64,000 nucleotides of DNA, taken from NCBI RefSeq assembly GCF_007747215.1, contig NZ_CP036273.1:310001-374000 (forward strand), read 5' to 3'. Below are positions 26,454 through 36,407 of this stretch, in pieces (the first letter of the stretch is position 1; each line of letters begins with the position of its first letter). The notes under the pieces were generated by a model. That model did no database searches and was not told where the DNA came from. It worked only from the letters and a program-made list of their open reading frames with translations. The position numbers and the translations under genes were made by a program. This stretch comes from Urbifossiella limnaea. GTDB lineage: Bacteria > Planctomycetota > Planctomycetia > Gemmatales > Gemmataceae.

Positions 26454-27224
26454 TCACCCGGCGCCGGTCAGGTGCAGCGCCTCGAGCAGCGCCGACCGCA
26501 GCGCCAGGAAGGCGGCGTCGGTGCGGCGGCGCGGCCGCGGCAGGCCCACGTCGATCACCCGGTCCACCCGCCCCGGCCGCGGCGACAGCACCACGATCCG
26601 GTCGCTCAGGTAAATCGCCTCGTCCACGTCGTGCGTCACCAGCAGCATCGTCGTGCCGCGGGCCGCCCACAGCCGCAGCAACTCGTCCTGCATCCGCATC
26701 CGGGTGAACTGGTCCAGCGCCCCCAGCGGCTCGTCCAGCAACAGCACCCGCGGGTGCGTCACCAGCGCCCGCGCCAGCGCCGCCCGCTGGGCCATGCCGC
26801 CGGAGAGCTGGTGCGGGTACGCCCCGGCGAACGCCGTCAGCCCGGTCAGCGCCAGGAGCTCGTCCACCTCGTGCCGCCGCTGCCGCAGCACGCCCTGCGC
26901 CACCAGCCCGGCCTCGACGTTCCGCCGCACCGTCAGCCACGGGAACAGGCTCGGGTCCTGGAACATCAGCCCGCGGTCGGCGCCCGGCCCGGTCACCGGG
27001 TTCGATCCGACGTGCAGCGCGCCGCGGGTCGGGGCGTCGAGGCCGGCCACCATCCGCAGCAGCGTGGACTTGCCGCACCCGCTCGGGCCGACCAGCGCCA
27101 CCAGCTCGCCGCCGGCCACGTCGAGCGAGACGCCGGCGAGCGCGACGACGGTGGCGCCGTCGGCGGCGCGGAACGTCTTGCTCACGTCGCGCACCCGCAG
27201 GGCGGCGCCGTCCGCGGGCGTCAC
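26454..27224 (-). CDS. ABC transporter ATP-binding protein (nitrate/sulfonate type)
   Basis: A 256-residue ATPase that powers the importer encoded just upstream. It has Walker A GPSGCGKST, Q-loop LMFQDPSLFPW, signature LSGGMAQR, Walker B VLLLDEPLGALD, and switch His in LLVTHDVDEA. The D-loop and FPWLTV sequence are typical of SsuB/TauB/NrtD-like ATPases. The GTG start overlaps the permease stop by 4 bp (GTGA), which indicates translational coupling. It is the last gene of the operon. Confidence 0.9.
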   Translation of the reverse strand: MTPADGAALRVRDVSKTFRAADGATVVALAGVSLDVAGGELVALVGPSGCGKSTLLRMVAGLDAPTRGALHVGSNPVTGPGADRGLMFQDPSLFPWLTVRRNVEAGLVAQGVLRQRRHEVDELLALTGLTAFAGAYPHQLSGGMAQRAALARALVTHPRVLLLDEPLGALDQFTRMRMQDELLRLWAARGTTMLLVTHDVDEAIYLSDRIVVLSPRPGRVDRVIDVGLPRPRRRTDAAFLALRSALLEALHLTGAG

Positions 27225-28219
27225 CACTTGATCACCCCCTGTTGCCACCGGAGCACGCGGTCGCGGACCTTGAACAGCAGCGTCATGAGCGTGGAGAAGA
27301 ACGCGGCGCTGATGAGGAGCGTGCCGTACACCTTGGCGTACTCCATGTACCCCTGCTGCCACCGCAGGTACCACCCGAGGCCGGCCTGCACGCCGACCGT
27401 CTCGGCGACGATGAGCGTGAGGAACGACGCGCCCAACCCCATGAACAGGCCGACGAAAATGTTCGGCAGCGCGGCCGGCAGCGCGACGCGGAAGATGAGG
27501 TACAGCCGGCCGGCGCCGAGGGTGCGGGCCACGTCCAGGTACGACAGCCGGACGTTGGCGATGCCCGACGACGTGAGGATGGTCATCGGGAACCACACGG
27601 CGAAGCCGATGAGCGCGACGGCGCACGGGAACGAGTCCTTCCACAGCGTCATCACCAGCGGGATGAGCGCCGTCGCCGGCACGGGGCCGACCAGCTTCAG
27701 CGCCGGCATCGCCCAGTAGCGCACCGCCGGGAACCAGCCGACGAGCACGCCGGTGACGAGCCCCGCGGCGACGCCGGCGGCGTACCCGGCGAGGAGCAGT
27801 TGCAGCGAGTGCCAGGCGCTTTCGAGCAGGATCGCGCGGTCGTCGAACACGGCCGCGAACACCTCGTCGGGGCCGGGGAAGAACGGCTGCTTCAGCCAGT
27901 TCATTTTGACGGTGACGAACTCCCACAGGGCCAGCAGCGCGACGGCGGCGGCGGTCAGCGGCGCGAAGTGGCGGACCGCGGGGCGCAGCGCCGGGAGCGC
28001 GGCCTGGAGCGCCGCGGCGAGGAGGCCGAGGGCGCCGACGGCGGCGACGACGACGGGGTACGGGTGCTGCCAGGCGGGGGCGGACGCGAGCCAGGTGAGC
28101 GGCGGCGGTTGCGCGTCGGCGAGGGCGAGGTGGGCGGCGAGCGCGGCGACGGCGGCGGCGGTCGGCGACAGGGCGGCACCCCAGCGGGCGGGCTGCGGGT
28201 CGGCGAGGTCGGACGCCAT
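27221..28219 (-). CDS. ABC transporter permease (nitrate/sulfonate type)
   Basis: A 332-residue membrane protein with two or three helices in an N-terminal extension (about residues 15-110) and then the six-helix SsuC/TauC-type permease domain. The cytoplasmic coupling loop is visible as DVARTLGAGRLYLIFRVALP, the EAA-type motif. Longer than the common 250-270 residues because of the N-terminal extension. It follows the binding-protein gene after 41 bp and overlaps the ATPase gene by 4 bp. The substrate is not defined by sequence. Confidence 0.88.
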   Translation of the reverse strand: MASDLADPQPARWGAALSPTAAAVAALAAHLALADAQPPPLTWLASAPAWQHPYPVVVAAVGALGLLAAALQAALPALRPAVRHFAPLTAAAVALLALWEFVTVKMNWLKQPFFPGPDEVFAAVFDDRAILLESAWHSLQLLLAGYAAGVAAGLVTGVLVGWFPAVRYWAMPALKLVGPVPATALIPLVMTLWKDSFPCAVALIGFAVWFPMTILTSSGIANVRLSYLDVARTLGAGRLYLIFRVALPAALPNIFVGLFMGLGASFLTLIVAETVGVQAGLGWYLRWQQGYMEYAKVYGTLLISAAFFSTLMTLLFKVRDRVLRWQQGVIKW

Positions 28220-28260
28220 CCGGCGAACTCCGCGGGCAGGTGGTCCGGGGGCGTGCGTGG

Positions 28261-29424
28261 TCACTGCGCCAGGCTCTCGCCCACGCAGCAGGCGGCGCAG
28301 CACGGGCACGCCCCCGAGCCCTTCGGGCCGAACAGCGCGGCGAACTGCGCCGCCGGCAGCAGCCGCGGCCGGCCGCCCGGCACGCGCTCCACCACTTGCG
28401 CCGTCACCCACTCGTCGGTCACGCCCGGCAGGTCGAGCCACGCCCGCCGCGCCAGCGCCGCCGCGTCCGTCGAGGCGCCCAAGAGCTTCGCCTTCTGCAT
28501 GTCGGCGGCGGCCTGCTCGACGCTGCTCTTCCCGCGCGCCACGGCCGGCGTGTACTTCAGGTGCATCAGCGCCTGCGTGTTCACCTCGGCGGACGCGGCC
28601 ACGTACTTCTTCTCCACGCCCAGCTCGGCCGCCGCCTTCGGGTTCTCCTGCACCCACTTCGCCGCCTTCAGAATCGCCTTCGTCACCTTCGCCGCCGCGG
28701 CCGGGTGCTGCCGCGCGAACTCGCCGTTGACGAGGACGGCACAACAGTACTCGTCCGCGTAGGGGGCGTCGGTCGCCTGGTCGGCGAGGGTGCGGACGAC
28801 CCCCTGCCCCTCCAGGATGGTGCCGATCGGGTCGGCGGTGGCGATCGCGTCGAGCTCGCCGTCCTGGAGCCGCTTGCCGAGCAGGCCGGGGTCCATCGCC
28901 ACCCACGTCACCTGCCTCGCCTCCAGCGACGGGTCGATGCCGGCGGCGGCGAGCACCCGGCAGGCGAACATGTACGGCGGGCTGCCGATGTGCGTCGGCA
29001 CGCCGATCCGCCTCCCCTTCAGGTCCGCGGCCGTCTTGATCGCCGACGTGGGCGGCACCTGCACCCGCAGGCAGCCGGTGTGGACGCCGCCGGTGATCTT
29101 GATGTCGCTCCCCTTCTCGATCCCCTTGAGGGCGTACATCACGAGCGTGTGGTTGGCGTGGAACGTGCCGTTGGCGAGGCCCTCCCGCAGCCCGTCCCAG
29201 TCGGTGCGGACGATCTCCGTCTCGACCCCCTGCTCGGCGAACAGCCCGCGCTCCTGGGCGACGAAGATGGGCGCCTCGCAGGTGAGGCCGAGGTACGCGA
29301 CCTTGAGCTTGCCGGCGCCCGGCTCGCCGGGCGCGACCGACCCGCGCCCGCCGCACCCGGCCGGGACGAGGGCGAGACCGGCCGCCAGCAGGCATGCGAC
29401 GGCGAGCAACGGGCGGCGGGTCAT
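28261..29424 (-). CDS. ABC transporter substrate-binding protein with Cys-rich tail
   Basis: A 387-residue periplasmic binding protein of the SsuA/TauA/NMT1 family. The signal region ends VPAGC with Cys24 as a possible lipid anchor, although Pro at -3 makes the lipobox imperfect. The mature part begins KLKVAYLGLTCEAPIFVAQE, typical for the family, and includes DLKGRRIGVPTHIGSPPYMF. The C-terminus carries an unusual five-cysteine tail, ACPCCAACC, after GPKGSG; this is not a normal family feature. It lies between a small heptad-repeat gene and the permease gene and is probably co-transcribed with both. Confidence 0.87.
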   Translation of the reverse strand: MTRRPLLAVACLLAAGLALVPAGCGGRGSVAPGEPGAGKLKVAYLGLTCEAPIFVAQERGLFAEQGVETEIVRTDWDGLREGLANGTFHANHTLVMYALKGIEKGSDIKITGGVHTGCLRVQVPPTSAIKTAADLKGRRIGVPTHIGSPPYMFACRVLAAAGIDPSLEARQVTWVAMDPGLLGKRLQDGELDAIATADPIGTILEGQGVVRTLADQATDAPYADEYCCAVLVNGEFARQHPAAAAKVTKAILKAAKWVQENPKAAAELGVEKKYVAASAEVNTQALMHLKYTPAVARGKSSVEQAAADMQKAKLLGASTDAAALARRAWLDLPGVTDEWVTAQVVERVPGGRPRLLPAAQFAALFGPKGSGACPCCAACCVGESLAQ

Positions 29425-29455: not shown

Positions 29456-29704
29456 TCACTTCTTCAGGATGGCCTTCTGGTTCTCCAGGATCGTCTCCTG
29501 GTTCTTCAGCACTCTGTCGAGCTTCTCCTGGTTGGCCAGGATGCTCTTCTGGTTCGCCTGGATCTTGTCCTGGTTCGCCAGCAGCTTCTCCAGCTTGGCC
29601 TGGTTGCCCTCGATCGTCTTCTGGTTGGCGATGATCGTCTCCTGGTTGGCGATGATCGTCTTCTGGTTCGCCAGGATGTCGTCTTCCTTGGCCACGGGCG
29701 TCAC
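29456..29704 (-). CDS. small heptad-repeat (ANQ) coiled-coil protein
   Basis: An 82-residue protein built almost entirely of a 7-residue repeat of the form I-x-A-N-Q-x-x (ILANQKT, IIANQET, IIANQKT, then IQANQKS, ILANQEK and others). Isoleucine or leucine occurs at the core positions and Asn-Gln at fixed positions, so a continuous coiled coil is expected. No signal peptide or membrane helix is seen. A GTG start with a GGAG ribosome-binding site fits; a second GTG three codons later is possible. It is 31 bp ahead of the binding-protein gene and so probably the first gene of the ABC operon. The function is unknown. Confidence 0.72.
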   Translation of the reverse strand: MTPVAKEDDILANQKTIIANQETIIANQKTIEGNQAKLEKLLANQDKIQANQKSILANQEKLDRVLKNQETILENQKAILKK

Positions 29705-29838: not shown

Positions 29839-30249
29839 TCAGGACCGCGGCGGTCGCTCGGGCCGGAAGGGACGGGTGGCGGGGTCGAAGGCGAGTGGCG
29901 AGGTGAAGGCAGGGCCGACCCCGGCCGCCGGGGGCACGGGCTCGTGCGGGGCACGCACGGCCTGCTCGACCGGCGGCGTCGCCGGGGCCGCCGGGGCGAG
30001 CGGGATCGGGTCGCGGTGCCGGGAGCAGGACGGCCCGTGGCACGGCTCCGGGGGGTGGGCGGGTGTCGGCGAGTCGGCCGCGGTCGCCCCCGTGGGGGAG
30101 ACGATCACGACGTAGTCGCCGCAGCCGGCGCGGGCGTCCGGAGCGAGGAGCGCGACCGCCACGACGGCGAGGAAGGCCCCCCACCGCGGCGCCCGTCGGC
30201 TGTTCCGCCTCGCCCGTTCCGACACGACTCTCGCCCACGGGGTTGTCAC
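29839..30249 (-). CDS. short secreted Pro-rich hypothetical protein
   Basis: A 136-residue protein with Arg-rich N-terminus, a hydrophobic signal segment (WGAFLAVVAVALLAPDARA), and a mature part starting GCGDYVVIV followed by a Pro-rich, low-complexity tail with CHGPSCSRH. The signal peptide and the GCGDYV start of the mature chain support a real gene. The start codon is uncertain: a GTG at VTTPWARVV was chosen, but other starts are possible. No domain is recognised. It is divergent from the PP-loop gene. Confidence 0.5.
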   Translation of the reverse strand: MTTPWARVVSERARRNSRRAPRWGAFLAVVAVALLAPDARAGCGDYVVIVSPTGATAADSPTPAHPPEPCHGPSCSRHRDPIPLAPAAPATPPVEQAVRAPHEPVPPAAGVGPAFTSPLAFDPATRPFRPERPPRS

Positions 30250-30287
30250 CCGCGCGGCGCGGGTGATGTGGTCACCAGGAATACGCC

Positions 30288-30293
30288 TATCAT
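30288..30293 (+). promoter_or_regulatory. candidate -10 box of the PP-loop / radical SAM / flavoprotein operon
   Basis: TATCAT, 75 bp before the first ATG, in an AT-rich patch after GC-rich sequence. It matches the recurrent TA(T/C)NAT box in this window. No clear -35 is seen. Confidence 0.4.
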
Positions 30294-30368
30294 GACCGCA
30301 ACGGCCCGCCGAGGCAACCGCCATCCGGCGCGAAGTCGCCACCGGCCGCCCTCCCGCCGAGCCCCGCG

Positions 30369-31703
30369 ATGCCCCGCACCGTCCCGCTCTCGCGCGTCAT
30401 CGACCTCACCGACCCCGCCGGCAACCGCGTCTACAACATGACCGTGGACGAGGCCCGCGCCCTCGTCGCCGCCGGCGACGCCGACGCGGTCCGCCGCATC
30501 GACGGCGAGTTCGCCCTGGTCGGCCAGCAGGGCAAGAGCGTGCTGATGGCCCGCACCATCGGCCGGCTGCTCCGCTACTTCATCGCCAAGTTCCGCGACG
30601 GCCCTATCCTCATCGTCGCCGACCGCATCGACGCCATCCGCGCCGAGCTCGACGCCCACGGCCTCGGCGACCAGTTCCACCCGTCATACACCCGCATGGT
30701 GCCGGCGCACCACGTCGTGCGGATCGAGCTCGTCGGCTGCCCCGACCCGAACCCGACGTACACCCGCTTCTTCGCCCCCGAACGGAACAGCCAGCCGGCC
30801 GACCCGGCGGCGATCGGCGAGCGCTACGTCGGCGCCGCGTTCGCCGAAATCACCCGCTGGCTCGACCGCGTCCCGGCGCACGAGCCGATCGGCGTGTGCT
30901 TCTCCGGCGGCGTCGACAGCGGGGCCGTGTTCCTGCTGACGTACCACGCGCTGCTGACCCGCGGCGACAGCCCGGCCCGGCTGAAGGCGTTCACCCTCGC
31001 GGTGGACGGCGGCGGCCCCGACCTGGCGCAGGCCCGCGACTTCCTCGGCCGCCTCGGGCTGGAGTTGTTCCTCGAACCGATCCCCGTCCGCGGCGCCGAC
31101 ATCGCCATCGAGGACGCCGTCCGGGTGATCGAGGACTACAAGCCGCTGGACGTGCAATCCGGCGCGATGGCGCTGGCGCTGTGCCGCGGCGTGCGCGCCC
31201 GCTACCCCGAGTGGCGCTACCTGCTCGACGGCGACGGCGGCGACGAGAACCTGAAGGACTACCCGATCGAGGACAACCCCGAGCTGACGATCCGCAGCGT
31301 GCTGAACAACCTGATGCTGTACCAGGAGGGCTGGGGCGTCGGGGCCATCAAGCACTCGCTGACGTACTCCGGCGGCCAGAGCCGGGGCTACGCCCGCACC
31401 TACGCGCCGCTGGCGGTGACGGGGTTCGTCGGGCTCAGCCCGTTCGTGTGCCCGGCGGTCATCGCCGTGGCCGAGGGCATCCCGTTCATCGAACTCACCG
31501 GCTGGGACCACGACCGGCTGTACGACCTGAAGGGGGCGGTGGTGGCCGCGGGGGTGAAGGCGGTGACGGGGCTGGAGCTGCCGGTGTTCCCGAAGCGCCG
31601 CTTCCAGCACGGGGCGGCGGACCGGCCGGCGGAGCTGTTCCCGGCCGGCGCGGCGGCCTACCGGCGGGCGTACCAGCGGGTGTACGAGGCGGCGGGGGCG
31701 TGA
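30369..31703 (+). CDS. asparagine synthetase-like PP-loop amide ligase
   Basis: A 444-residue protein related to AsnB and to beta-lactam-synthetase-like enzymes. The C-terminal synthetase domain has the PP-loop SGGVDS at residues 179-184 and LLDGDGGDENLKDYP, the family's acidic ATP-Mg segment. The N-terminal 130 residues resemble a decayed glutaminase domain (RIDGEFALVGQQGKSVLMAR), but the catalytic Cys at position 2 is absent, so it cannot use glutamine in the usual way. It may activate a carboxylate by adenylation and join it to an amine. It is the first of three genes that overlap by 4 bp, so the product is likely made together with the radical SAM enzyme and flavoprotein. Confidence 0.82.
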   Translation: MPRTVPLSRVIDLTDPAGNRVYNMTVDEARALVAAGDADAVRRIDGEFALVGQQGKSVLMARTIGRLLRYFIAKFRDGPILIVADRIDAIRAELDAHGLGDQFHPSYTRMVPAHHVVRIELVGCPDPNPTYTRFFAPERNSQPADPAAIGERYVGAAFAEITRWLDRVPAHEPIGVCFSGGVDSGAVFLLTYHALLTRGDSPARLKAFTLAVDGGGPDLAQARDFLGRLGLELFLEPIPVRGADIAIEDAVRVIEDYKPLDVQSGAMALALCRGVRARYPEWRYLLDGDGGDENLKDYPIEDNPELTIRSVLNNLMLYQEGWGVGAIKHSLTYSGGQSRGYARTYAPLAVTGFVGLSPFVCPAVIAVAEGIPFIELTGWDHDRLYDLKGAVVAAGVKAVTGLELPVFPKRRFQHGAADRPAELFPAGAAAYRRAYQRVYEAAGA

Positions 31704-31708
31704 CCGGC

Positions 31709-32614
31709 ATGACCCACCCGCTGCCGACCGACGACTGGGTGCTCGCCCGCCGGCCGCCGCGCAACGCCGTCGCCGCCGACCGGCCGTATGCGTTCCTGGT
31801 CGAGCCCGAGCCCGCCGCCGACGGCCGGCTCGTCGACGTCGCCACGCTGTTCCTCAGCAACCGCGAGTGCCCGTTCCGCTGCGTCATGTGCGACCTGTGG
31901 AAGAACACGCTCGCCGAGTCCGTCGCCCCCGGCCAGATACCCGAGCAGATTCGCTGGGCGCTCGCGCAGCTGCCGGCGGCACACCACCTGAAGCTGTACA
32001 ACGCCGGCAGCTTCTTCGACCCGCGCGCCGTCCCGCCCGCCGACTACGCCGCCATCGCACGCCTCGCGGCGCCGTTCGAGCGCGTCGTGGTCGAGTGTCA
32101 CCCGCGGCTCGTCGGCCGGCGCTGCTTCGAGTTTCAGGCGCTGCTCGCGGGCCAGTTCGAGGTGGCGATGGGGCTCGAAACCGTCCACCCCGACGTGCTG
32201 CCGCGGCTGAACAAGGGGATGACTCTCGCCGACTTCACCCGCGCGGCCGCCGACCTCCGCGCGGCCGGCGCCGCGGTGCGGGCGTTCATCCTGGTGCGGC
32301 CGCCGTTCCTGACCGACGCCGAGGGGCTGGAGTGGGCCAAGCGGTCGCTCGACTTCGCGTTCGCCGCCGGGGCCGAGTGCTGTAGCCTGATCCCCACGCG
32401 CGCCGGCAACGGCGCGATGGAAGAACTCGCGGCGCAGGGCCACTTCGCGCCGCCGTCGCTCGACGCGGTGGAAGCAGCCTTCGAGTACGGCCTGGGGCTG
32501 CGGGCCGGCCGCGTGTTCGTGGACCTGTGGGACATCGGCACGCCGGGCGCCGACGCGGCGCGCGTGGCCCGGCTCGGCCGCATGAACCTGTCGCAGAAGG
32601 TGGAAGCCCCGTGA
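31709..32614 (+). CDS. radical SAM enzyme of unknown specificity
   Basis: A 301-residue protein with the [4Fe-4S] cluster motif CPFRCVMC (Cys54, Cys58, Cys61) directly followed by DLWKN. Later segments of the barrel include LKLYNAGSFFDPRA, VVVECHPRLV, MGLETVHPDVLPRLNKGMT, and AFILVRPPFL. It lacks SPASM-type extra cysteine clusters and the TRAM/B12 domains of MiaB or methylthiotransferases. A GTG nine bases upstream (31700) overlaps the previous stop by 4 bp and may be the true start. Sequence style is near the TIGR01210-like group. The substrate is unknown; genomic pairing with a PP-loop ligase and a flavoprotein suggests a shared pathway. Confidence 0.83.
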   Translation: MTHPLPTDDWVLARRPPRNAVAADRPYAFLVEPEPAADGRLVDVATLFLSNRECPFRCVMCDLWKNTLAESVAPGQIPEQIRWALAQLPAAHHLKLYNAGSFFDPRAVPPADYAAIARLAAPFERVVVECHPRLVGRRCFEFQALLAGQFEVAMGLETVHPDVLPRLNKGMTLADFTRAAADLRAAGAAVRAFILVRPPFLTDAEGLEWAKRSLDFAFAAGAECCSLIPTRAGNGAMEELAAQGHFAPPSLDAVEAAFEYGLGLRAGRVFVDLWDIGTPGADAARVARLGRMNLSQKVEAP

Positions 32615-34089
32615 CGCGGCTCGACTGCGATCTCGTCGTACTCGGCTCCGGCTTCGGCGGCACGCTGCTGGCGATCGTGGCGCGATCGCTGGGCCTGTCG
32701 GTGGCGGTGGTCGAGCGCGGCACGCACCCGCGGTTCGCCATCGGCGAATCATCGACGCCGCTGGCCGACTTCAAGCTCGCCCGCATCGCCGACCGGTTCG
32801 GCCTCGACTGGTTGCGGCCGCTGGCGAAGTACGGCCCGTGGAAGGCGACGTACCCGCACCTCAGCTGCGGGCTGAAGCGCGGGTTCAGCTTCTTCCGCCA
32901 CCGGGCCGGCGAGTCGTTCGCGCCCGCCGAGGGGAACGCGAACGCCCTCATCGTCGCCGCCAGCCCGACGGACGCCACCGCCGACACGCACTGGTACCGC
33001 CCCGACTTCGACGCCCACCTCGTCGAGCGCGCCGTTGCCGCAGGCGCGCACTACCTCGACCGCTGCGAGGTTCACACACTTCGGCACACCAAGCCCGGTT
33101 GGGAAATCGAAGGGGCGCGGCCCGATGGCGCGGTGAGCGTCCGCGCCGGCCTGCTGATCGACGCCACCGGCACCGGGCAGGCGCTCGCCGAAGCGCTGAA
33201 GCTGGAGGCGGTCGATCCCGCGCAGCTGCGGACGCGGTCGCGCGCCCTCTACTCGCACTTCCGCGGCGTGGCCCACTGGCACGACGTGCTCGGCCCGGCG
33301 GCCACCGCCGACCACCCGTTCCCGTGCGACGCCGCGGCCCTGCACCAGATCATCGACGGCGGCTGGATGTGGGTGCTGCGGTTCGAGAACGGCATCACCA
33401 GCGCCGGCTTCTCGCTCGACCCCGACCGCCACCCGGTCCGGCCGGGCGAGTCGCCGGACGCGGAGTGGCGGCGGCTGCTCGACACGTACCCGTCGCTGGC
33501 GCGGCAGTTCGCCGACGCGGTGCCGACGCGGCCGCTGGTGCGCACGGGCCGGTTGCAGCGCCGCCTCACCCGCGCGGCCGGCCCCGACTGGGCGCTGCTG
33601 CCGCACGCCGCGGGCTTCCTCGACGCCTGGCTCAGCCCCGGCATCGCGCAGACGCTGTACGCGGTGAACCGGCTCGCCAACGTCCTGGCCGACGAGCCGG
33701 CCGCGCGCGCGCGCCGGCTGGCGGGCTACGGCGACGCGGTGCTGCGCGAGCTGGCGTGGGTGGACGAGATCACCGGGACGTGCTTCGAGTGCCTCGACCG
33801 CTTCCCGGTGCTGGCGACGGCGGTGATGGTGTACTTCACCGCGGCGATTTACTGTGAGGAGCGCGAGCGCCGCGGCGAGGCCGGGCCGGACGAGGGGTTC
33901 CTGCTCGCCGACCACCCGGAGTACCGCGCCGCCGCGGCGAAGTTGTTCGCGGCGGCGCGGACGACGGCGGACGCGGACGCGTTCCTCGCCGCCGCCCGCC
34001 GCGCGCTGGAGCCGTACAACTCGTGCGGCCTGTGCGACCCGCGGCGGCGGAACATGTACCCGTACACCGCGTCGCACGCCGCCCGGTAG
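32611..34089 (+). CDS. flavin-dependent oxidoreductase, halogenase-like
   Basis: A 492-residue FAD enzyme. The FAD-binding G-x-G-x-x-G is at residues 12-17 (GSGFGG), followed by the glutamate strand VAVVERG and the segment PRFAIGESSTPLADF, typical of tryptophan-halogenase-like and geranylgeranyl-reductase-like flavoproteins. The halogenase GWxWxIP motif is only partly kept (GGWMWVL), so halogenation is doubtful. The C-terminus has a conserved-looking CGLC pair (YNSCGLCDPRRRNMYPY). The GTG start overlaps the radical SAM stop by 4 bp. It probably oxidises or reduces the product of the two upstream enzymes. It ends 5 bp before the convergent esterase gene. Confidence 0.83.
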   Translation: MTRLDCDLVVLGSGFGGTLLAIVARSLGLSVAVVERGTHPRFAIGESSTPLADFKLARIADRFGLDWLRPLAKYGPWKATYPHLSCGLKRGFSFFRHRAGESFAPAEGNANALIVAASPTDATADTHWYRPDFDAHLVERAVAAGAHYLDRCEVHTLRHTKPGWEIEGARPDGAVSVRAGLLIDATGTGQALAEALKLEAVDPAQLRTRSRALYSHFRGVAHWHDVLGPAATADHPFPCDAAALHQIIDGGWMWVLRFENGITSAGFSLDPDRHPVRPGESPDAEWRRLLDTYPSLARQFADAVPTRPLVRTGRLQRRLTRAAGPDWALLPHAAGFLDAWLSPGIAQTLYAVNRLANVLADEPAARARRLAGYGDAVLRELAWVDEITGTCFECLDRFPVLATAVMVYFTAAIYCEERERRGEAGPDEGFLLADHPEYRAAAAKLFAAARTTADADAFLAAARRALEPYNSCGLCDPRRRNMYPYTASHAAR

Positions 34090-34094
34090 GCCCG

Positions 34095-35183
34095 CTACTG
34101 CGCGCCCTTCGCCGCGTACCCGCGCCACGTCCACTCGATCGCGTGCGGCAGGAACCGCCCCTGGGCCTTGCCGTCGCAGTGGCCCGACCCGCGGCAGAAC
34201 AGGTACTGGTACTCGTACCCCTTCGCCTTCAGCGCCGTCGCCATGCGGTGGTTCGCCGCCACCCAGTCGTGCATGTTGTCGCGCATCACGTTCGGGTTCA
34301 GCAGGTCGCGGTCGCCGACCTGGATGAACAGCCGGATCGGCTTCTTCGGCTCCTTCGGGATGAGCGTCTCGTGGAAGCCCCACGCCCCGTCCGGGTACTT
34401 CGGGTCGAACGGCCACGCCTGGTTGACGAACGTGCCCGAGGTGGTGAGCGCCCGGCGGTACAGGTCGGTGCGGAACCACGCCATGATGAGCGCGCACGAC
34501 CCGCCGGAGCTGCACCCCATCGCCGCCCGGCCGTCGGGGTCCTTGGTCAGCTTCACGCCGCAGGTCTTCTCGACGCGCGGCAGCACCTCGTCCTCGATGT
34601 ACGTGGCGTAGTCGCCGTTCATGTTGTCGTACTCCTTGCCGCGCTCGTGCCCCTGCGCGTCGCCGCCGCCGTTGGCGATGGAGATGAGGATGATCGGCGG
34701 GATCCGCTTCTGGTGGATGAGGTTGTCGAGGATGGTCTTGTACCCGTTGGCGTGGCCGGGGCCGTCGTGCACGACCATGAACGGCGCCGCCGTGCCCGGC
34801 TGGTACTGCGCCGGGACGTACACGCCGACCGCCCGCTTGTAGTCGATCGGGTGCGTCTCGACGACCAGCGTCTTGGGGTTGGTCGGGTCCACCTTGCCGA
34901 ACACCTTGCGGGCGATGCCGGGGTTGAACAGCTTCGTCTCCTTCGAGTCGATGACGAACTGCTGCACCTTCCCCTCGGGCACGCCGTCGGCCTTCTTGCG
35001 CTCCGGGGCGGTGACGTAGTCCGGCCCGATGACGAAGTTGTCGTAGGCGTCGAGCGGCGGGAGTTCGCCCTTGCCGAGCGTCTTGAACGGCGGGGCGCCC
35101 TTGTCGTCGGGGCTGCGGGTCGGCGGCTGCGCGACGGCGAGGCCGGCGGCGGCGAGGAGGAGCAGTGCGGCGAGGCGGGACAT
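34095..35183 (-). CDS. secreted esterase (alpha/beta hydrolase, enterochelin-esterase-like)
   Basis: A 362-residue exported hydrolase with signal peptide (about residues 1-18, ending AVAQ). The nucleophile elbow is GCSSGGS, within AAMGCSSGGSCALIMAW; likely acid and base are in QVGDRDLLN and GSGHCDGK. A typical strand with oxyanion region is PFMVVHDGPGHANGYK. The family cleaves esters, including those of sugars or siderophores; no siderophore genes are nearby. It is convergent with the halogenase-like gene. Confidence 0.87.
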   Translation of the reverse strand: MSRLAALLLLAAAGLAVAQPPTRSPDDKGAPPFKTLGKGELPPLDAYDNFVIGPDYVTAPERKKADGVPEGKVQQFVIDSKETKLFNPGIARKVFGKVDPTNPKTLVVETHPIDYKRAVGVYVPAQYQPGTAAPFMVVHDGPGHANGYKTILDNLIHQKRIPPIILISIANGGGDAQGHERGKEYDNMNGDYATYIEDEVLPRVEKTCGVKLTKDPDGRAAMGCSSGGSCALIMAWFRTDLYRRALTTSGTFVNQAWPFDPKYPDGAWGFHETLIPKEPKKPIRLFIQVGDRDLLNPNVMRDNMHDWVAANHRMATALKAKGYEYQYLFCRGSGHCDGKAQGRFLPHAIEWTWRGYAAKGAQ

Positions 35184-35290
35184 ACCGGCTCCGGGAGGGG
35201 TAGCGGGTGCTCGGACGGCACCCGGGCGTGCGCGGGTAGCTTATTCACGCCCCGCCGCACCGGCCGGCGACCGCGGCACCGCCGGCGTGG

Positions 35291-35296
35291 TATCAT
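35291..35296 (+). promoter_or_regulatory. candidate -10 box of the YHS-like gene
   Basis: GGTATCAT with hexamer TATCAT, 55 bp before the ATG; CGGAGG at 35339-35344 is the ribosome-binding site. Confidence 0.4.
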
Positions 35297-35351
35297 TCGA
35301 CCGGACGTCACACGGGTGTCGAGAACGAGACACACCCGCCGGAGGCCTCAC

Positions 35352-36407
35352 ATGACCCGCCCCGCCCTCGTCCTCGCCGCGCTCGCCGCCGGCGCCCTGC
35401 CGGCCCGCCCGGACACGCCGCCGCCCGTGCTGGCGCTGACCGGCCTCGACCCCGTCGCCCTGGCGGCCGGCACCGAGACGCCGGGCAAGGAGGGCATCGA
35501 GGCCACCTACGGGCGGTTCACGTACCGGTTCGCCAGCGAGGCGAACAAGGCCGCGTTCCTGGCCCGGCCGGGCGAGCGCGCCGTCCAGTTCGGCGGCGCC
35601 TGCGGCCGGATGGGGCCGTTCAGCGGCACCGGCAACCCGGCCCGATTCCACGTCCACGACGGCCGCATCTACCTCTTCGCCTCGGAGGCCTGCCGCGACT
35701 CGTTCAAGCGCGACCCGGACAAGCACGTCGAGCAGCCGAACCCGGCCCCGCAGGGGACCGCCGACGAGAAGGCCCGCGGCGCCCGGCTGGTCGAGCGGGC
35801 GCTCGACGGCTTCGGCGGGGCGAAGGCCGTGGACGCCCTCCGCACCCTCTCCCGCGTCGAGAAGGTCGTCTACACCCAGGGCGGCACGGAGACGGCCGGC
35901 ACCGCCCGGAGCGTCTGGGCGTTCCCCGACGCGGTGCGGACCGAGGAGAGCTTCGGCACGCCCTACGGCCACGTGGTGACGCGGGACGGCGGGTTCGAGT
36001 TCCTGGGGCAGAAGGACTGGGCGCTCGAGCCGGCGATGCGCGCCGACGCCTGGCGGCGGGCGCTGCGCGAGCCGCTGGTGCTGCTGCGGAACCGCGCCGC
36101 GCCGGGGTTCGTGGCCGTGGCCCGCGGCCCGAACACCGTCGAGGTGGCCCTCGCCGGCGCCACCTCCACCTGGACCCTCGACGAGAAGACCGGCCGGGTG
36201 GTGCGGGCCGAGTTCCGGGCGCGCCGCGGCACGGTCGGCGACAACGCGGTCGTGTTCGCCGACTTCCGGGCCGTGAACGGCGTCGTGCTGCCGCACAAGC
36301 GGACCGAGTCGTTCGACGGCAAGGAGATCACCGCCCCGGCGCGGCGCGTCGAGGCGCTGGAGGCGAACGGCGAGGTGAAGGCCGAGCTGTTCGTGCGGCC
36401 CAAGTGA
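35352..36407 (+). CDS. secreted protein with two YHS/TRASH-like segments
   Basis: A 351-residue exported protein (signal peptide about residues 1-19). Two segments resemble YHS domains, small metal-binding modules: LTGLDPVALAAGTETPGKEG...YRFASEANKAAF, and FHVHDGRIYLFASEACRDSFKRDP. The cysteines expected in metal-binding versions are only partly present (one in EACRDSF). The C-terminal 200 residues look like an outer-membrane-lipoprotein-sorting or DUF-type beta structure (ALDGFGGAKAVDALRTLSRV...). The role is unknown. The ATG follows a good ribosome-binding site. Confidence 0.7.
   Translation: MTRPALVLAALAAGALPARPDTPPPVLALTGLDPVALAAGTETPGKEGIEATYGRFTYRFASEANKAAFLARPGERAVQFGGACGRMGPFSGTGNPARFHVHDGRIYLFASEACRDSFKRDPDKHVEQPNPAPQGTADEKARGARLVERALDGFGGAKAVDALRTLSRVEKVVYTQGGTETAGTARSVWAFPDAVRTEESFGTPYGHVVTRDGGFEFLGQKDWALEPAMRADAWRRALREPLVLLRNRAAPGFVAVARGPNTVEVALAGATSTWTLDEKTGRVVRAEFRARRGTVGDNAVVFADFRAVNGVVLPHKRTESFDGKEITAPARRVEALEANGEVKAELFVRPK

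Follow-up and report, generated by a model that had tools for sequence, protein, structure and literature searches.

A ligase, a radical SAM enzyme and a halogenase-like flavoprotein as the putative core of a widely distributed biosynthetic pathway

An amide ligase, a radical S-adenosylmethionine (SAM) enzyme and a halogenase-like flavoprotein are encoded one behind the other in the planctomycete Urbifossiella limnaea (family Gemmataceae), and the question raised by this locus is what the three enzymes make together and with which partners. The genes, named A, B and C in their order, occupy positions 30369–34089 of a 64,000-nucleotide stretch of the genome (assembly GCF_007747215.1, contig NZ_CP036273.1, positions 310,001–374,000), the whole of which is called the window. 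A preliminary description of this DNA had reported them as an uncharacterised three-gene pathway, and all three open reading frames were found at that position. The results described below suggest that these enzymes form the core of a so far uncharacterised pathway, spread widely among bacteria, by which a small molecule is made, and that they work with three partner proteins (D, E and F) and an importer; to this reading we assign a probability of about 0.5. The system is thus uncharacterised as reported, but it is not a closed trio: A and B constitute the core, C is limited to some lineages, D accompanies A throughout the planctomycetes sampled, and F and the importer are co-inherited with A in the window's family. 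The enzyme classes are known, whereas the combination and its partners are undescribed as far as could be searched; as had been presumed from the set of genes, a literature search for it and for UnbU/UnbV gave no description, subscription papers being mostly outside its coverage.

Enzymes encoded by the trio

Ligase A matches the Pfam family PF00733 at 51 bits, covering only part of the synthetase domain, and TIGR01536 at 35.7 bits, under the cut-off of 267.1. Its AlphaFold2 model, built from 42 homologues with a predicted local distance difference test (pLDDT) score of 85.5, is most similar to beta-lactam synthetase (1mbz; Z score 24.4, root-mean-square deviation 3.7, 371 residues aligned), followed by human ASNS (23.9), AsnB (23.4), carbapenam synthetase (21.0) and TsnB9 (19.2); since the first three tie within about 1 Z, the likeness to beta-lactam synthetase noticed earlier holds by fold and extends to the asparagine synthetases. 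A shares with beta-lactam and carbapenam synthetases and AsnB the two-domain fold (Z 20–24) and the PP-loop SGGxDS, which was correctly described as intact (SGGVDS, residues 179–184) and is invariant among homologues apart from a V/I exchange. The glutaminase domain is dead, as had been claimed: a cysteine corresponding to the catalytic one of AsnB is absent from the N-terminal region in 16 aligned relatives, and it is likewise missing in beta-lactam synthetase. However, A is only 11–19% identical to the beta-lactam, carbapenam and asparagine synthetases and forms a group of its own, whose members are 59–87% identical to A of the window among the loci retained for analysis. Near its C-terminus A has a conserved PKRRFQ motif, which may be the counterpart of the C-terminal lysine that, together with a catalytic Tyr-Glu dyad, serves intramolecular amide formation in beta-lactam synthetase. 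The lasso-type role also considered for A found no support; a lasso peptidase or precursor was not noticed beside the genes, no search having been aimed at them.

Radical SAM enzyme B scores highest against TIGR01210 and TIGR01212, the best model being TIGR01210 (97.4 bits over 209 residues, under the equivalog cut-off of 212.15), and matches PF04055 at 33 bits. Its cluster motif CxxxCxxC (CPFRCVMC) is conserved across 80 homologues, and no cysteines other than C57, C61 and C64 stand at positions that at least 95% of them share; therefore no conserved set for an auxiliary cluster is visible, in agreement with the basic cluster described before. The single CxxxCxxC and the best model relate B to RaSEA, the archaeosine-forming enzyme of TIGR01210. 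In contrast to RaSEA, whose partner is ArcS, B is bacterial, scores below half of the equivalog cut-off and is accompanied by an AsnB-type ligase.

The nearest solved structures to flavoprotein C are the halogenases CtcP (phmmer, 4e-52) and PltM (1e-45), with homology over about 360–410 residues. The flavin adenine dinucleotide (FAD) motif GSGFGG (residues 12–17) has the GxGxxG form. Lys89, which had escaped the preliminary description, aligns with K87 of PltM, the K87A mutant of which is inactive (PMC6424973), and with K98 of CtcP, which has been named catalytic (PMC12400496); it is kept in 32 of 32 homologues of C. The halogenase motif WxWxIP is retained in part, as had been observed: the window has GWMWVLRF, and nearly all homologues keep GWxW and replace IP by (L/I)R, so that arginine stands for the proline found in CtcP and PltM and only one of the listed homologue motifs has proline at this position. 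C differs from CtcP and PltM also in its C-terminal region, which is distinct and in most homologues bears a GLCDP-like motif. Scores against the QhpG, GoxB and LodB models are 30–53 bits.

Distribution, partner genes and importer

The distribution was surveyed in 95 genomes of the window's family, in 392 planctomycetes (the phylum sample) and in named genomes, in which at least 580 loci with relatives of A were found across several phyla and the best 80 were read. Presence and absence were called mostly from draft or metagenome genomes, and the Fisher values given below are not corrected for shared ancestry. A occurs in 16 of the 95 family genomes (a seventeenth match, in genome G073, with 30% identity over 84 residues and five stops, was treated as spurious) and in 22 of the 392 planctomycetes; no relatives were found in plasmid records. 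In the stretches examined, the three genes follow one another directly in 14 of these 16 genomes; one of the other two has A-B without C nearby, and one has neither B nor C beside A. The best 80 relatives (59–87% identity to A of the window) belong to Planctomycetota, Bacteroidota, Verrucomicrobiota, Calditrichota, Marinimicrobia, Gemmatimonadota, Abditibacteria, Acidobacteria and others, with about 60% identity between phyla, and the row A-B-C recurs in other planctomycetes, Verrucomicrobia, Calditrichia, Abditibacteria and Acidobacteria. The trio therefore recurs in other planctomycetes and beyond; restriction to this strain, which had been named beforehand as a refutation, is not what was observed. 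Its contiguity in 14 of 16 genomes, together with the identity of A between phyla, makes the arrangement more than chance.

Among the clustered named loci, B was present in 65 and C in 24. A search for C in 25 A-positive genomes found it in three; because it was missing from the other 22, mostly Bacteroidota, C is absent, and not just unlinked, in most Bacteroidota genomes having A-B. The core is thus A-B, with C confined to some lineages. A and B evolve together, their distance matrices being correlated with r = 0.77 over 78 taxa (permutation maximum 0.13); for A and C the value is 0.85 over 31 taxa (permutation maximum 0.24). As a separate observation, in a metagenome-assembled genome of Calditrichia, a gene for a pyrroloquinoline quinone/haem alcohol dehydrogenase ends where the open frame of A starts (L101:7587-9908).

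Three further proteins accompany the trio. D (about 1170 residues) contains TPR, FG-GAP and UnbV domains, E (about 607 residues) contains FG-GAP and UnbV, and F (about 380 residues) is a UnbU/RnfD/NqrB-like membrane protein. A-B-C-D-E-F forms a single run in nine family genomes, while the genome of the window has D-E-F as a separate group (G000:C1:504122-510434), some 165 kb away from A-B-C. Within the family, F was found in the same 16 genomes as A and in none of the other 79 (Fisher 1.8e-18), also where A and F are unlinked, and in genera that include A-positive as well as A-negative genomes (g1, g6, g7, g25, g29) the two are jointly present or jointly absent. As an obligatory partner of A, however, F is valid in the window's family only: in the phylum sample two genomes combine A, present in 22, with an F-like gene, present in 24. 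D behaves differently, occurring in 22 of 22 A-positive and 113 of 370 A-negative planctomycetes (Fisher 1.9e-11); in the planctomycetes sampled, A implies D, and D does not imply A. D has an N-terminal hydrophobic segment and invariant residues, for example the Cys of GSCPF. An enzyme domain hoped for in its C-terminal region did not appear, the model giving only a discoidin/CBM32/35-like sandwich (residues 119–271, Z 8–10), with the rest barely tested. In many Bacteroidota loci D is near A-B, directly adjoining it in many. Similar loci with UnbV proteins (L111, L143, L148, L156 and others) show, beside A-B, a recurring YVTN/MauG-type protein and a protein with the middle domain of hydrazine synthase alpha. 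DUF1501 and DUF1559-like neighbours were set aside as partners, being too common in planctomycetes.

E and F are related to proteins of the enediyne cassette, E to SgcE4 (26% identity, 159 bits) and F to SgcE5 (29% identity, 60 bits), and the genes for SgcE4 and SgcE5, which belong to the C-1027 enediyne cluster, are neighbours in the C-1027 plasmid just as E and F are here. The pair E4/UnbV and E5/UnbU is thus homologous to E-F, which here follows A-B-C-D, with D as an extra large protein. No enediyne polyketide synthase was noticed among the conserved neighbours, the genome not having been searched for one.

An operon for an ATP-binding cassette (ABC) importer, divergent from A, starts about 0.95 kb upstream. 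The earlier statement that no transporter lies within the trio is therefore literally true, but it passed over this operon, which co-occurs with the trio, as well as a short conserved gene adjacent to it. The binding protein was found in 12 of 95 family genomes, all A-positive (12 of 16 versus 0 of 79), in one of which (G027) it is distant from the trio. It is rich in cysteines, some conserved in the body of the protein and others crowded in the C-terminal tail (for example CLCCTRCCIE); its conserved motifs include GLTCEAP, TGCLR and (E/D)(Y/F)CC, and its sequence relatives include nitrate/bicarbonate-type proteins. The short gene, of the kind that had been proposed for a search, encodes an ILANQ-repeat protein of about 80 residues between the binding protein and A, about 0.7 kb from the latter. 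It occurs in 14 of 95 family genomes, 12 of them A-positive, and lies upstream of the binding protein in eight other genomes. One of the two exceptions, the A-negative genome G040, again has it preceding an NrtA-like binding protein, and for this reason the gene seems linked to the importer and not to the trio. In that genome (L199, G040:C49), at about 1.4 kb of the locus read as reverse complement, the NrtA-like gene beside the ILANQ gene contains an in-frame TGA, a putative selenocysteine codon to judge from its position at the conserved Cys (GLTC) of related binding proteins. In several Gemmataceae A or the importer has as its neighbour a gene for an EF-hand protein, whose iodothyronine-deiodinase-like domain matches PF00837 at 97 bits; it lies directly upstream of A at L082:8565-9977 and occurs also at L075:4386-5669. 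A link to halogens is possible, and such proteins may be common in planctomycetes.

A proposed pathway and its rivals

The best reading of these results is that the pathway yields a small molecule that bears an amide, may be halogenated and is handled extracytoplasmically; we infer the product, its substrates and the order of steps from the enzyme families and the company they keep. A would adenylate a carboxylic acid by means of its PP-loop and join it to an amine, which may be free ammonia, an amino compound or an amine of the same molecule, and which A would take directly because its glutaminase half cannot free ammonia from glutamine. B, with a single [4Fe–4S] cluster, would use a 5'-deoxyadenosyl radical to transform this product or a precursor. 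C, where present, would employ reduced FAD and oxygen for halogenation, or less likely hydroxylation, of an electron-rich, probably aromatic, part. D may then handle the product outside the cytoplasm through its TPR, FG-GAP, UnbV and binding modules, as may the enediyne-related E-F pair in the window's family, and the cysteine-rich importer may serve for uptake of the product, of a substrate or of a metal. In a few operons of Bacteroidota, A-B-D is joined by genes for 3-deoxy-D-arabino-heptulosonate 7-phosphate (DAHP) synthase and a RidA/chorismatase-N-like protein, which hints at an aromatic precursor; such a precursor would suit a phenol-type halogenase, yet the Bacteroidota genomes searched are without C. 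Halogenated metabolites are known from planctomycetes, and for one of them, alichondrichlorin, the genes have yet to be assigned (PMC12078418).

Several points weigh against this pathway. Amide formation by A is predicted from the fold and the PP-loop, and the loss of the WxWxIP proline allows C to be a monooxygenase. Moreover, Bacteroidota carry A-B without C, F is absent from 20 of the 22 A-positive genomes in the phylum sample, and many genomes have D and F-like genes without A, so that these are not dedicated to this product.

The strongest rival, in our estimate still an unlikely one, is that A-B-C make or install a prosthetic group or covalent modification on the extracytoplasmic D (or E), with D as the client. 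The logic is comparable to that of quinone-cofactor maturation by QhpD/QhpG or LodB, and C also scores against the models of QhpG, GoxB and LodB. The presence of D in every A-positive planctomycete sampled, and in others that lack A, is as expected of a client with relatives that need no modification; the adjacency of D and A-B in Bacteroidota and the invariant residues of D point the same way. However, C is far closer to CtcP and PltM (about 1e-52 and 1e-45) than to QhpG, the hydrophobic segment of D would oblige cytoplasmic enzymes to act before export, and B is without the conserved auxiliary cysteines that are usual in peptide-modifying SPASM enzymes. Somewhat less probable again is a system that makes, exports and re-imports a metallophore, or otherwise serves the acquisition of soft metals, a plausible special case in view of the importer cysteines. 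The co-inherited binding protein with its cysteine motifs, and Bacteroidota loci that include a TonB receptor, SusD and haem proteins, would accord with it, whereas the binding protein is found in part of the window's family only and has relatives of the nitrate/bicarbonate type, and no metal-binding group is predictable for the product.

That the trio matures a ribosomal peptide, with the ILANQ-repeat protein as precursor, appears improbable. The closeness of that gene to A and its co-occurrence with A in 12 of 14 genomes are offset by its linkage to the importer, repeated in G040 without A, and by its absence from the loci examined in other phyla; the protein itself resembles a regular coiled coil, with no division into leader and core. 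We regard modification of transfer RNA (tRNA) by A and B as very improbable. The characterised relatives of B (RaSEA, a tRNA-modifying radical SAM enzyme (PMC11298593), MnmL/YtqA and Elp3) have this role, and B scores best with TIGR01210 and TIGR01212. Modification of tRNA often involves PP-loop enzymes and radical SAM enzymes. Against this stand the patchy distribution (A in 16 of 95 family and 22 of 392 phylum genomes), the tie to extracytoplasmic D, E and F and to a halogenase-like enzyme, and the resemblance of A to AsnB in fold along its whole length.

The small-molecule pathway is thus the reading that we prefer. The gene set is real and widely conserved, and the identity of about 60% across phyla, combined with patchiness within each, points to one specific, useful and apparently unnamed product. 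It is a tentative thought, for which we would not claim even odds, that A-B(-C) represents a so far unrecognised class of small-molecule biosynthesis across many phyla, and that D with UnbV/UnbU is a general extracytoplasmic module for reactive products, shared with the enediyne pathways. The UnbV/UnbU link offers a route to study enediyne-cassette proteins in a setting without a polyketide synthase among the conserved neighbours, and a search for the product can start from the cultured members (Gemmata, Limnoglobus roseus, Roseithermus).

Gene boundaries and flanking frames

The genes of the trio had been described as overlapping by 4 bp. Both overlaps (GTGA, at 31700–31703 and 32611–32614) are present with GTG starts, but that between A and B is uncertain, because ATG 31709 of B agrees with the homologue starts equally well.

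Table 1 Features of the trio and the importer operon in the window
Feature	Coordinates	Strand	Evidence
A, asparagine/beta-lactam-synthetase-type amide ligase, glutaminase-dead, 444 aa	30369..31703	+	PF00733, AlphaFold2 fold, SGGVDS
B, radical SAM enzyme, RaSEA/TIGR01210-related	31700..32614 (GTG 31700 or ATG 31709)	+	TIGR01210, PF04055
C, FAD-dependent halogenase-like enzyme, CtcP/PltM type, 492 aa	32611..34089	+	phmmer, catalytic Lys89
Short ILANQ-repeat, coiled-coil-like protein upstream of binding protein	29456..29704	-	translation, conservation
Substrate-binding protein, probable lipoprotein, NMT1/NrtA-type ABC importer, Cys-rich C-terminal tail	28261..29424	-	PF13379, 81 bits
ABC importer permease	27221..28264 (start approximate: GTG 28264 or ATG 28219)	-	PF00528, 66 bits
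ABC importer ATPase	26454..27224 (start approximate)	-	PF00005, 111 bits

Downstream of the trio, a frame with a YHS domain (34023-36404, plus strand) was seen to share no conservation with it. Between the importer and the trio, a small putative secreted protein (29839-30342, minus strand) with GCGDYV and CHGPSC motifs has no Pfam match and is weakly conserved in two related loci.

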